Source: Planctomycetota bacterium
GTDB lineage: Bacteria; Planctomycetota; Planctomycetia; Gemmatales; Gemmataceae
DNA: 45,155 nt
Reading direction: 5' to 3'
Assembly: GCA_016872595.1 (NCBI GenBank)
Contig: VGZJ01000012.1
Span: forward strand, 1-45,155
Each line of letters starts with the position of its first letter. The stretch's first letter is position 1. The notes below the pieces were generated by a model. It was not told where the DNA came from, ran no database searches, and worked only from the letters and a program-made list of their open reading frames with translations. Of this stretch, positions 20,058 to 45,021 are shown piece by piece. The position numbers and the translations under genes were made by a program.

Positions 20058-21485
20058 CTACTTCTTCGTGTCGCGGTAGTCGAGCGGCGGGGGCTGGTCT
20101 TTTTCCAGCATCGCGGTGTACTTGCGGCCGGCGAGCCGTTTCGTGTGTTCGGCCTTCGCGTCGTTCCGCAGGTCGGCGTCGGTGAACAGGTCGTGGGCGG
20201 TCGCGGCCAGCGTGCGCGCGGCGAGGTTCATGCCCTTCTTGGCGATGGTCGTTCCGCCGCACGCGACCGCCTGCCACGAGTGCCCCGGCGTGCCCGGAAC
20301 CCAGCACGCGACGCGCACGCCCACCGTCGGCACGATCCACGACACGTCGCCCACGTCCGTACTGCCGCCGCTCGACTGCCCGGACACGTCGAACACGCGG
20401 CCGATCTGCTCCAGCGGCGGGGCCTTGTCGGGGAACGTCTCGCGCAGCCGCACCGCGAACTTCGTTTCCTCCGCGTCGTACTTCAGGTCGTTGAGCGCGG
20501 TCAGGTTCTTCTTCGCGATCTCCGAGAGCGCGTCGTTGGGCAGAATCTCCATCGTGCCGCCGAGGTACTGCACTTCGAGGCGCGTTTCGGTGGCGAGCGC
20601 GCCGGCCTGCGCGCACTTGAGCACGCGCGGGTAGAGTTTCTGCACCACATCGGCCTTCGGGTGCCGCACATAGAAGAACCCCTCCGCGAACTCCGGCACG
20701 ACGTTGGCCGCGCCGCCGCCGCTCGTTACGGTGTGGTGCAGGCGCGTGCCGTCCGGGGTGTGCTCGCGCAGCAGTTCGACCGCGTGCATCGTCAGCACCA
20801 GCGCGTCGAGGGCGCTGCGGCCCTTTTCGGGCGACGCGGCGGCGTGGGCCGCGGTGCCGTGGAACCGGAACTTGACCGCGACCCGCGCGAGACAACTCGC
20901 GTCGCCCGCGGCGTTGTTCGCGCCGGGGTGCCAGTGCAGGGCGGCGTCGCAATCGTCGAACAGCCCGGCGCGGGCCATGAACACCTTCGCCGCGCCGCCC
21001 TCTTCGGCCGGGCACATGTAGAACCGCACCGTGCCCTTGAGCTTTCCGGCCTTGATCTGCTCGGCGATGGCGATGGTTGCGGAGAGCGACGCGGTGCCGA
21101 ACAGGTGGTGCCCGCAGGCGTGACCGTAGCCGTTGCCGCCCTTCTTCGGCTGGCGGAACGGCACCGCGTCCTGCGCAAGTTCGGGCAGCGCGTCGAACTC
21201 GCCCATGATGCCGATGACCGGCTTGCCGGTGCCGAACTCCGCGGTGAACGCCGTGGGAATCTTCGCCACCCCGCGCGTTACCTTCAATCCGGCTTTCTCC
21301 GCGATGTCCGCGAGCGCGTCCGCGGACTTCTTCTCCTGATAGCCCGGCTCGGCCCAGTCCCAAATCTTCAGAGCGGTGGGCCAGTTCGCATCAGCGTGCG
21401 CCCCGGCGGATTTAATCGCGGCCTCCTTCTGTGCGACCGCGAGCGCGGGAGAAACGACAAGCGCGACGAGGGAAAGCAATCGCAT
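20058..21485 (-). CDS. Exported M20-family amidohydrolase (AbgB-like)
   Basis: The protein has 475 residues. The start at 21485 gives a signal peptide (MRLLSLVALVVSPALAVAQ). Upstream codons run into the palindromic repeat and are rejected. M20 metal-site motifs are visible: GIMGEFDALPELAQ, GYGHACGHHLFGT, CPAEEGGAAKVF and DAALHWHPG. The dimerisation/lid domain follows (KFRFHGTAAHAAASPEKGRS). The length and the GNGYGHACGHHL region resemble p-aminobenzoyl-glutamate hydrolase subunit B. It is a probable aminoacylase or amidohydrolase outside the cytoplasm; the substrate is unknown. It is divergent from the DUF2721 gene, with a perfect 31-bp palindrome between. Confidence 0.88.
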   Translation of the reverse strand: MRLLSLVALVVSPALAVAQKEAAIKSAGAHADANWPTALKIWDWAEPGYQEKKSADALADIAEKAGLKVTRGVAKIPTAFTAEFGTGKPVIGIMGEFDALPELAQDAVPFRQPKKGGNGYGHACGHHLFGTASLSATIAIAEQIKAGKLKGTVRFYMCPAEEGGAAKVFMARAGLFDDCDAALHWHPGANNAAGDASCLARVAVKFRFHGTAAHAAASPEKGRSALDALVLTMHAVELLREHTPDGTRLHHTVTSGGGAANVVPEFAEGFFYVRHPKADVVQKLYPRVLKCAQAGALATETRLEVQYLGGTMEILPNDALSEIAKKNLTALNDLKYDAEETKFAVRLRETFPDKAPPLEQIGRVFDVSGQSSGGSTDVGDVSWIVPTVGVRVACWVPGTPGHSWQAVACGGTTIAKKGMNLAARTLAATAHDLFTDADLRNDAKAEHTKRLAGRKYTAMLEKDQPPPLDYRDTKK

Positions 21486-21498
21486 GGTGCGTCTCGTG

Positions 21499-21575
21499 AA
21501 AGTAGTAGGCACACGCCGAGTGCCGTCGCATTCCACCGAGTCTAGCGACGGCACTCGGCGTGTGCCTACTACTTT
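21499..21575. repeat. Perfect 31-bp palindrome (GTAGGCAC family), copy 1
   Basis: Arms 21499-21529 and 21545-21575 are perfectly complementary with a 15-base loop. It fills the divergent gap between the amidohydrolase and DUF2721 genes, starting 13 bases before one ATG and ending 20 bases before the other. The right arm matches 27 of 31 bases of the right arm of copy 2 (23070-23100). It looks like a mobile REP/MITE-type element. Confidence 0.85.
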
Positions 21576-21595
21576 ACCTCTGAAGGGGACCGCAC

Positions 21596-22138
21596 ATGAC
21601 CGCAATCGACTTTCTCGGCGCGGGCGAGATTCTGGGCGCGATGATTACGCCGGCGCTGCTCATCAGCGCGTCGGGTACACTGGCCCTTTCGACCGCGAAC
21701 CGGCTGGGGCGCGTCGTGGACCGCATTCGCGCGCTGAACGACATGGCCGAGGGACTGCCGGACGGCGTCGTGACCGACGAGGTCGTCGACAAGCGGGCGC
21801 TCATCGCCGATCAGATCGGCTGGCACACCCTGCGGCTCCGCCTGCTTCAGCGCACCATCGTCACTCTGTACGTCGCCATCGGGTTGCTGGTCGGGGCGAG
21901 CCTGACGGTCGGCCTGTCCGCTTCGACCAAGTGGGCGCTCGGGTGGGTGCCGGTGCTCTTCGGCCTGAGCGGGGCGTTCGCGCTCCTGTTCGCCGCCGGC
22001 ATGTTGATCCGCGAGTCGCGGTTCGCCGTGCGCGGGGCCGAAGTGGAGATCGAGTACGTGCGGAAGGTGGTCGCGCGGAAAACGACCGTGCCGCTGGTGC
22101 GGCACGAGAAGCCGGAAGGCGGGCTGGGCGAGGGGTGA
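21596..22138 (+). CDS. DUF2721 family membrane protein
   Basis: The protein has 180 residues. RBS: GAAGGGG about 9 nt before the ATG. The family N-terminus is clear: GAMITPALLISASGTLALST then ANRLGRVVDRIRALNDM. Three membrane helices are visible, near 14-34, 92-112 (TIVTLYVAIGLLVGASLTVG) and 118-142. A charged, soluble C-terminus ends RHEKPEGGLGEG. The family function is unknown. It is convergent with thioredoxin, with a 22-base palindrome between. Confidence 0.88.
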   Translation: MTAIDFLGAGEILGAMITPALLISASGTLALSTANRLGRVVDRIRALNDMAEGLPDGVVTDEVVDKRALIADQIGWHTLRLRLLQRTIVTLYVAIGLLVGASLTVGLSASTKWALGWVPVLFGLSGAFALLFAAGMLIRESRFAVRGAEVEIEYVRKVVARKTTVPLVRHEKPEGGLGEG

Positions 22139-22967: not shown

Positions 22968-23000
22968 GCCGGGCGCGCCGCCCAAGGCGCGAGGTAATGC

Positions 23001-23100
23001 AGTGGGCACGCCCCGCGTGCCGTCGCCGCGGCCCAGTTGAGCACCCGCGAAGGTGCTCACACCGCATTCGCGACGGCACGCGGCGCGTGCCTGCCACTTT
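23001..23100. repeat. GTAGGCAC-family palindrome, copy 2, with nested hairpin
   Basis: Outer arms 23001-23026 and 23070-23096 are nearly complementary. An inner perfect hairpin GAGCACC-N6-GGTGCTC (23039-23058) sits in the loop, so a branched structure is possible. It lies between convergent rpmA and proS. The right arm matches copy 1 at 27 of 31 bases. Confidence 0.75.
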
Positions 23101-24690: not shown

Positions 24691-24715
24691 AACAGGGGGC
24701 TAACGCCCCCCGCTC
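24691..24715 (-). repeat. Dispersed GC palindrome, copy 2
   Basis: Read on the minus strand this is GAGCGGGGGGCGTTAGCCCC followed by CCTGTT. It is identical to copy 1 (2950-2973) except one base in the loop. It is 36 bases upstream of the proS start, so it would lie in the proS leader. Confidence 0.8.
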
Positions 24716-28966: not shown

Positions 28967-28995
28967 CCCCACGAGCGAGTGGCGCGGTGCCAGCG

Positions 28996-29053
28996 CGCCG
29001 GTGCGAGACCCACTCAAGTACGCACGACGAACTGAGTGGGTCTCGCACCGGCG
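28996..29053. repeat. Perfect 21-bp hairpin between two plus-strand genes
   Basis: Arms 28996-29016 and 29033-29053 (core GGTGCGAGACCCACTCA) are perfectly complementary with a 16-base loop. It follows the LolA-like gene by 29 bases. No U-tract follows. It may terminate transcription, or be one copy of a mobile palindrome family with no second copy in this window. Confidence 0.65.
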
Positions 29054-29099
29054 GGCTCACGCCGCGCCGCTCGCTTGAGAACCGTGTGGAGCCTCTCTC

Positions 29100-32587: not shown

Positions 32588-32708
32588 AACCCACCCCCCA
32601 ACCCCCTCCCTGAAGGGAGGGGGAGTAAGGCAACCTAACCCCCCGGCCCCCTTCCCTTCAGGGAAGGGGGCCGGGGGGTTAGGTTCTGCCGGGGCCGGGG
32701 GGTGGGTT
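32588..32708. repeat. Nested C/G-rich palindromes, MITE-like
   Basis: A perfect 26-bp stem (32632-32657 with 32660-32685) has a loop of only two bases. A second hairpin (CCCCCTCCCT / AGGGAGGGGG, about 32603-32624) lies beside it. Outer near-complementary arms AACCCACCCCCCAACCCC and GGGGCCGGGGGGTGGGTT enclose both. It fills most of the 197-base divergent gap between the oxidoreductase and DUF1080 genes. Confidence 0.85.
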
Positions 32709-35551: not shown

Positions 35552-35619
35552 GAGCGATGCCCCCTGATGTGGGAATGAGGAGGCATTCTACGAACGCGGT
35601 CCGCGTGAAGTCCGAAAGG

Positions 35620-35704
35620 CAGTTTCGACAGGACGAACAGAGATGAGATGAACTGATTTCACCTCTTCATCCTGCCTTTCATCCTGTTCATCCTGTCGAA
35701 ACTG
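35620..35704. repeat. Inverted repeat that supplies a stop codon
   Basis: Arms 35620-35640 and 35684-35704 (CAGTTTCGACAGGATGAACAG type) are complementary at 20 of 21 bases. Three TTCATCCTG units lie between and in the right arm. The right arm contains the last codons and the TGA of the GT87-like gene at 35688 (TVSTG then stop). Confidence 0.8.
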
Positions 35705-36839
35705 TCGTTCTGCCTCTATGCCCCTTTGTGAAAAGGCACGGCGCGAGCGCGAGCGGGGCGACCCACCAGTAGTCGTGGAGCGCGCCGGCAAGAACGAACG
35801 ACGCGGCCGTGAGTGCGGCTTGTGTGGCGATGAGCAGCACGAGCGCGCGCGGCGCTAGCTGCGCCGCGGCACAAATGACAGGCACCAGCAATACCGGCAG
35901 GTCGAAAACCCAGCCGCCATAAGGGGTGGCGAGTACGGAGACGGCGACCGCCAGCGGCAAGGCGCGGGGCCATTCCCACTGATGCGCGCGGGCGCGCCAC
36001 ACGAGCGCCGCGGCGCACGCGAGCGCGCACGGCACGAACTGGATCCAGAACTGATCGGCCGCGACCCACTTGCGGAGCCAGAACGCCGGCACCGGGAGCC
36101 ACCAGTCGGACAGCGCCCTCGCGCCGGGCGCAGGATTGTGAGCGGCTTCGAGGAACTGCGCGACGACCTGTGGGTTGGCGACCAGCGCCGTCACCAGCGC
36201 GAGCGCGATCACCGCGACGCCGGCCGCGAGCGCCTTCGCACCGCGCTTGGTGACGGCGTCCGCGACCAGCAGCACGCCGAACACCGCGAGCAGGTGCGGC
36301 TTCAGAGCGGTCAGCGCCGCGAACGCGCCCGCGGTGTACGGCTTGTCCTTCTGGCGGAAGTGCAGGAACCCCGCGAGGCCCAGCAGCAGGAACCCGGTGT
36401 TCTGCCCGTAGGCGACCAGCCACCACGTTCCCGCGAACGAGATCGCCACGACCGCCGCGAGCCAGCGCGCGCGGTTGCAGTACGTTCGCCACAGCAGATC
36501 ACAGGCGACGAACACCGACGCGAGTTGCAGCCCGACCCAGAGGAGCGCGGCCCAACGCGGCGGCAGCGCGCCGAGCGGCACGTACACCGCGAGCGCCGGC
36601 GGCGGGTTCCACATCATCACCGCTTCGGTGCGCTCCGGCTCCGCTCGCTGCTGTTCCGCGAGCAACTCGCGCGGGTCGTAGGGGTTGCCGCCGTGCAACT
36701 GCACGCGCCCCGCGGCCCAGTATTCGAGGAAGTCGCGCGGGACGAGGAACCCCGGCGTGCGCACGACGATATCCGCGACGAAGGCGAGCGCCGCCCCGCC
36801 GACGAGAAGCACCAGCACAGAGCGAACGCGCGGAGACAT
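35688..36839 (-). CDS. GT87-like membrane glycosyltransferase (DUF2029)
   Basis: The protein has 383 residues and about nine to ten membrane helices. The GT-C features of the GT87/PimE-like family are seen: a first loop with RDFLEYWAAGRVQLHGGNPY (about 35-54) holding the Asp/Glu near the active site, then YDPRELL, VMMWNPPPALAVYVPLGALP, FLLLGLAGFLHFRQKDKP, AALTALKPHLLAVFGVLLVA, and ATPYGGWVFDLPVLLVPVIC. Such enzymes use polyprenyl-phosphate sugars on the outer face of the inner membrane. It is last of a three-gene operon, beginning 4 bases after the PMT-like gene. The C-terminal codons lie in a dispersed repeat. Confidence 0.85.
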   Translation of the reverse strand: MSPRVRSVLVLLVGGAALAFVADIVVRTPGFLVPRDFLEYWAAGRVQLHGGNPYDPRELLAEQQRAEPERTEAVMMWNPPPALAVYVPLGALPPRWAALLWVGLQLASVFVACDLLWRTYCNRARWLAAVVAISFAGTWWLVAYGQNTGFLLLGLAGFLHFRQKDKPYTAGAFAALTALKPHLLAVFGVLLVADAVTKRGAKALAAGVAVIALALVTALVANPQVVAQFLEAAHNPAPGARALSDWWLPVPAFWLRKWVAADQFWIQFVPCALACAAALVWRARAHQWEWPRALPLAVAVSVLATPYGGWVFDLPVLLVPVICAAAQLAPRALVLLIATQAALTAASFVLAGALHDYWWVAPLALAPCLFTKGHRGRTTVSTG

Positions 36840-44864: not shown

Positions 44865-44898
44865 GGGGTTGGAAGGGTAGAGGGAGATATGTGTAGGC

Positions 44899-45021
44899 CG
44901 CTTGGGGTGGCGCTCGCAAAGCCTCGCGCGAGCGGTCACGGTTGCGGAAACGGTTGCGCGCGATTGGGGATACGTGGAGCGCGCTTGGGGTGGCGCTCGC
45001 AGAACCTCGCAAACCCCAAGC
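44899..45021. repeat. 29-bp direct repeat next to the IS end
   Basis: CGCTTGGGGTGGCGCTCGC plus ten bases occurs at 44899-44927 and 44982-45010 with 27 of 29 matches. The second copy also pairs with ACCCCAAGC at 45013-45021 (GCTTGGGGT at 44983-44991). It lies between the GH32 start and the transposase. Nothing else is seen in 44865-45072 apart from the presumed IS end. Confidence 0.7.

Follow-up and report, generated by a model that had tools for sequence, protein, structure and literature searches.

What kind of sequence fills the space between two divergent start codons in a planctomycete of the Gemmataceae, and what became of the promoters of the two genes? The question is raised by a palindrome in a stretch of 45,155 nts (contig VGZJ01000012.1), hereafter the window, which belongs to the source genome G000 (6.81 Mb, 590 contigs); other G numbers denote the relatives with which it was compared. 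An earlier description of the window from its letters (the sequence-only reading) had reported a perfect 31-bp palindrome between divergent starts, which is confirmed, as the arms are complementary at 31 of 31 positions (Table 1) and the element takes up 77 bp of the 110-bp gap, with 13 and 20 bp of host DNA on its sides. Folding of the element strand yields -49 kcal/mol as DNA and -76.2 kcal/mol as RNA, and neither value was reached by any of 200 dinucleotide-preserving shuffles. The element is very probably a REPIN that was copied by a RAYT and that, at this locus, replaced older intergenic DNA of the divergent gap.

Table 1. Coordinates of the palindrome, its neighbours and the second element in the window.
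Feature	Position	Strand	Remarks
M20 peptidase gene, left divergent neighbour	20058-21485	-	Pfam PF01546 and PF07687; ATG at 21485
Left REP arm	21499-21529	+	GTAG tag at 21502-21505
Left-arm hairpin GGCACAC-GCC-GAGTGCC	21508-21524		A9/A15 mismatch inside
Loop between arms	21530-21544		15 nts
Right REP arm	21545-21575	-	Exact reverse complement of left arm; outer end CCTACTACTTT
TACTAC, proposed -10 box	21567-21572	+	Right edge of element, 23 nts before DUF2721 start
DUF2721 gene, right divergent neighbour	21596-22138	+	Pfam PF11026; ATG at 21596
Second element	22996-23100		Arms 22996-23026 and 23070-23100, separated by a 43-nt loop that includes a hairpin

A family of paired REPs

In G000, 80 arms were counted with a 25-nt pattern at up to 3 mismatches, and a 22-nt pattern allowing 1 mismatch gave 96; the reversed pattern and the control, respectively, had no match, which excludes a family limited to the two copies seen in the window. 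Inspection of the 52 places defined by the 80 arms, window included, yielded 48 inverted pairs, of which 28 are short and 20 long; GTAG is on the outside in every one. At least three more arm-bearing contigs (C1, C49 and C319) lie outside this set, and the genome holds about 50 copies of the element; some arms lack a partner even at 6 mismatches. Among the 44 pairs with at most 4 changes per arm, the loop measures exactly 15 nts in 19 and exactly 52 nts in 15. The loop sequences are highly variable, with few positions kept, and host DNA as their origin was dropped after inspection of the loci.

The arm consensus TTCAAAGTAGTAGGCACACTCCGTGTGCCGTCGC consists of a GTAG tag and the hairpin GGCACAC-TCC-GTGTGCC. 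Positions 1-4 of the REP consensus AAAGTAGTAGGCACACTCCGTGTGCC and the hairpin, except loop position 11, are conserved in more than 90% of 88 arms. The window element carries a private change, T15A, in both of its arms, by which each small hairpin loses one pair and the long hairpin is preserved. Across the family, changes common to both arms number 5 in the core without positions 11 and 23, compared with a mean of 0.5 after shuffling (none of 2000 shuffles came up to 5), and 46 changes in the core without its two most variable positions are confined to one arm. That the palindrome owes its perfection chiefly to arm-to-arm correction is thus only partly borne out. Since it is an inverted pair of GTAG-tagged hairpin REPs present in many copies, the element is identified as a REPIN, i.e., a head-to-head REP dimer.

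The sequence-only reading had noticed a second arm at 23070. It does match at 27 of 31 positions (4 differ), but its partner at 22996-23026 had been overlooked; as the two arms form a pair, the window contains two whole elements. The second one sits between the 3′ ends of the genes for L27 and proline--tRNA ligase.

Target sites were analyzed with genes called by a simple codon-usage script. The 48 elements lie between tandem genes in 36 cases, convergent genes in 6 and divergent genes in 5, with 1 at an edge; the element-free gaps of at least 20 nts in the same stretches comprise 76 tandem, 11 convergent and 20 divergent ones. Copies occupy gaps or the final codons of genes, with a median of 32 nts of host DNA beside them. 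Where the 3′ end of a gene points towards an element, it is within 12 nts of the element's tail in 42 of 48 cases, and at 19 of the 48 the stop codon is inside the tail (TAGTAG); starts facing away are equally near in 20 of 47 cases. The family thus favours gene 3′ ends, which makes a divergent gap an unusual site (5 of 47). The window copy, which has no neighbouring 3′ end and the least host DNA among the five divergent copies, is an outlier of its family, and the second copy, flanked by a 3′ end on either side, fits the usual pattern.

Distribution and mobility

Arms at up to 1 mismatch occur in 7 of the 61 genomes sampled from the family Gemmataceae (G000 included), and arms at up to 2 mismatches in 10 of 15 further genomes of the same genus. 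At the latter threshold the counts are high in G071 (139), G064 (82), G070 (71), G073 (65) and G068 (55) and lower in G066 (21), G069 (12), G065 (6), G074 (2) and G072 (1). With 22 loci as probes, orthologues were found in G065, G068 and G043. The nearest relative of G000 as judged by DUF2721 is G065 (94%), and it lacks the element at all seven comparable loci other than that of the window, where G000 is longer by 69, 67, 67, 46, 42, 27 and 21 nts. In the clearest of these comparisons (L023), where the stop codon lies in the element tail, the element is placed within GAG|TGA, at the stop codon. Two loci (L025 and L036) are empty in G068 as well as in G065, which most likely dates these insertions after the separation of G000 and G065. 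The proposal that the palindrome belongs to a mobile family is therefore upheld by the 48 inverted pairs and the empty sites in the nearest relative, the location varying between species.

At a further locus (L015), G000 and G068 carry the element and G065 carries, at L158, a different repeat, which resembles a repeat beside the Y1 gene of contig C241 in G000. REP families seem to take turns at this one gap.

Over 20 comparisons the net change in length ranged from +106 to -71 nts, which rules out insertion as pure addition at every site. Four comparisons with G068 or G043 were net negative (-37, -69, -71 and -33 nts). As the net change is not always a gain, length alone is a poor witness of either insertion or replacement.

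RAYT genes as candidate movers

A REPIN would be non-autonomous and copied by a RAYT, an enzyme of the HUH/Y1 type that would work on single-stranded DNA. In G030 and G038, a gene of approximately 215 codons is bracketed on both sides by REPs of the window type (L092 and L093), and the two encoded proteins share 58% identity. When aligned with five relatives (alignment A1, 7 sequences), they show invariant HUH histidines H134 and H136 and an invariant tyrosine Y194, all of which align with E. coli TnpA-REP (PDB 4ER8). The latter was the sole PDB match of A1 at E 0.1 (E 0.0073), a weak similarity, and the RAYTs of the relatives have a much longer N-terminal part. In 4ER8 the aligned tyrosine is Y115, the catalytic one. 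The NCBIfam model NF047646 (REP-associated tyrosine transposase) was matched at 3.4e-18, under its cut-off (65.9 and 61.2 versus 80 bits).

A scan of named genomes used the best 80 of 199 RAYT relatives, from records titled Planctomycetes, Verrucomicrobia, Poribacteria and others, and a repeated tagged hairpin adjoins 46 of these 80 loci. REPs of the class G[TC]AGGCA-TCC/GCC-TGCC adjoin the loci most similar to the query: at an identity of 55% or more, 17 of 22 loci have one no farther than 600 bp away (on both sides in 15, missing at 5), compared with none of the 58 loci under 55%. This limit was chosen post hoc, after the tagged-hairpin results had been seen. Within the RAYT superclade (L187-L266), GTAG, GTCG or GTGG tags precede hairpins whose loop is mostly TCC; these tags and hairpins amount to a RAYT-to-REP code that would lend itself to systematic reading.

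The sequence-only reading had proposed to search for a RAYT-like transposase that moves the element. The REP-bracketed genes of relatives speak for such a mover, but neither G000 nor five genomes of the same genus with 55-139 arms (G064, G068, G070, G071 and G073) yielded a RAYT bracketed by an arm of this family, a result that rests on six fragmented assemblies (250-1430 contigs). In these six genomes the matches of the A1 profile have no arm nearby, nor do the 26 Y1_Tnp matches of the five relatives. The five Y1_Tnp loci of G000 were rejected as movers, since no family arm occurs there even when 6 of 25 positions may differ; other inverted-repeat families are near three of these loci (L064, L065 and L066). 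Likewise rejected were the RAYT-clade genes of G064, G068, G074 and G075, along with a further such gene of G038 (L097), all of which are accompanied by other REPs. G026 possesses 48 arms, yet none at its seven RAYT-like loci, and the sole Y1 gene of G055 (24 arms) has an arm pair about 0.9 kb off, on one side only. We infer that the RAYT was lost from G000 or is missing in its assembly.

The REPIN reading combines direct observations, i.e., the architecture, the copy number, the pairing of REPs with a RAYT clade in relatives and the occupied and empty sites, with catalysis by a RAYT on the window element, which is presumed.

The divergent gap and its promoters

DUF2721 orthologues are present in 16 of 19 same-genus genomes (G000 included), and 13 of the 16 retain the M20 neighbour. 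The gap measures 110 bp in G000, 117 in G065 (counted from the start that agrees with the remaining orthologues), 118 in G043 and G068, 111 in G066, 109 in G061, 108 in G062, 114 in G063, 143 in G069, 180 in G067, 184 in G075, 346 in G072 and 41 in G071. The net change at the window locus is accordingly -7 nts relative to G065 and -8 nts relative to G043. The gap of G068 holds an element of the family with a different loop, and G061-G063 have a single REP half next to DUF2721, with the left part of the gap retained.

On the M20 side, GA[CG]AAT lies 29-37 nts upstream of the gene in 9 of 11 orthologues besides G000 and G068, the exceptions being G067 (CACAAT) and G071 (none), and this box was not found before the M20 gene in G000 or G068. 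On the other side, TACACT lies 21-24 nts upstream of DUF2721 in G065, G043, G075 and G072; the other element-free gaps have TAAACT (G069), TACATT (G067), TACAGT at a different distance (G071) or none (G066). TACTAC occurs 22-24 nts upstream of DUF2721 in G000, G068, G061 and G062, and TACTAT at 23 nts in G063. These hexamers are putative promoter elements, as suggested by their conservation.

The sequence-only reading had left two outcomes side by side, namely that the element replaced the old promoters or that it brought its own. The first is supported by comparison only: the gap length is unchanged and the -10-like boxes of most element-free relatives are gone, hence the old promoter region was probably lost or replaced at the window locus. 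The element would then stand for about 80 bp of older intergenic DNA rather than being an addition, and with the -10-like boxes gone and the element in their place, both genes would need sequence at its edges or across it.

The only hint of the second outcome is TACTAC at the -10 position. Added to the REPIN reading, it would mean that the element ends form a symmetric divergent promoter, with TACTAC at each edge as -10 box and the arm as upstream part, so that one promoter pair was swapped for another. This is a possibility that we regard as doubtful. It agrees with TACTAC or TACTAT standing 22-24 nts before DUF2721 where four relatives have TACACT at 21-24 nts, and a transcript begun beyond the element would have a 31-bp hairpin immediately upstream of the start codon. 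However, a scan of 21400-21700 for the sigma-70 consensus returned 0 sites, and the register on the M20 side differs, with 16 nts in G000 versus 29-37 nts for GA[CG]AAT in relatives. Elsewhere the distance from TACTAC to a start downstream is scattered, being 20-25 nts in 4 of 47 cases with the window copy included, and upstream of 109 genes TACTAC was seen 9 times near versus 4 far, few cases that are partly the element itself. Less probable still is the bolder proposal that the REPIN is now the working divergent promoter after overwriting the old pair (TACTAC as -10 box at each end), the REPINs of the genus having moved after speciation with no cognate RAYT remaining.

Two explanations that dispense with a REPIN are both very unlikely. 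A classical MITE, with terminal inverted repeats of a DDE transposon and a target-site duplication, would also be short, non-coding and numerous with inverted ends, and GAG flanks the L023 copy on both sides (one copy examined); against this, every single arm makes up a tagged hairpin, and in relatives the pair is associated with a clade of Y1/HUH genes. An operator or RNA element that regulates the M20 and DUF2721 genes locally would suit the strong fold and the elements found at the locus in G068 and, as a half, in G061-G063, but copies lie next to many unrelated genes, the locus is without an element in the nearest relative G065, and neither an Rfam match at gathering score nor a terminator-like site was obtained.

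Other repeats in the window

Positions 28974-29075 form an inverted repeat with 43-nt arms (88% complementary) that looks like repeats next to the Y1 gene of contig C241 (L065); judged by this likeness, it is another REPIN family of G000. A perfect 26-nt inverted repeat (AACCTAACCCCCCGGCCCCCTTCCCT) at 32594-32685 is overlapped by an imperfect 30-nt one, and a repeat of G075 (CCCCTCCCTTCAGGGAGGGG, in L123) is similar to it. An inverted 24-nt pair (GAGCGGGGGGCGTCAGCCCCCTGT, 96%) at 2950-2973 and 24692-24715, with 21.7 kb between, is likely another REP family; the M20-DUF2721 gap of G072 (L119) holds a repeat like it. The window also contains a 32-nt inverted repeat at 35609-35715 (84% complementary, arms 43 nts apart) and, at the contig end, a direct 45-nt repeat (44883-44927 and 44966-45010, 84% identity). 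A search of a plasmid collection with the family gave 0 matches at E 0.01.

Relation to known systems and significance

As far as the consulted part of the original description goes (Bertels and Rainey 2011, PMC3116915), REPINs likewise consist of two inverted REPs that form a hairpin in single-stranded DNA, with a variable spacer, numerous extragenic copies and a RAYT as proposed mover. The window family differs from them in its sequence, its phylum, a copy in a divergent gap and the cognate RAYT not found in G000 itself. The portion seen of the work on the GTAG REP super-family (Di Nocera and others 2013, PMC3733652) describes the same GTAG on the outside, a stem with a short loop, head-to-head dimers and spacers that may differ in sequence yet keep their length, and already reports the super-family from the PVC superphylum. 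The likeness to its 24 families is at the level of the super-family, not family by family. The word "Gemmata" has 0 occurrences in the text of PMC3733652, and "repetitive extragenic palindromic" together with "Gemmata" was not found in the literature searched, a body that most subscription journals fall outside.

In the consulted part of PMC8049555, REPIN spacers are described as very diverse, REPINs are counted in E. coli genomes that lack the RAYT, and the guess of a promoter role for REPINs recurs; a cognate RAYT in the same genome is accordingly not a strictly defining feature. With these precedents, so far as the parts seen of PMC3733652 and PMC8049555 go, neither variable loops nor genomes lacking a RAYT represent a new kind of finding. 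Short inverted-repeat elements, the Correia repeat enclosed elements of Neisseria, are said in the available part of PMC2649163 to create promoters at one end or at both; the likeness concerns a possible effect only.

In kind the element is nothing unusual, belonging to a REPIN family that goes with its RAYT clade, and it links one such family to a single RAYT clade among planctomycetes. Only one feature stands out, namely that the same promoter region is available as a series, with a whole element in G000 and G068, a half in G061-G063 and none in G065 and G043, which provides a direct test ground for the guess, as worded in the part seen of PMC8049555, that REPINs may act as promoters.
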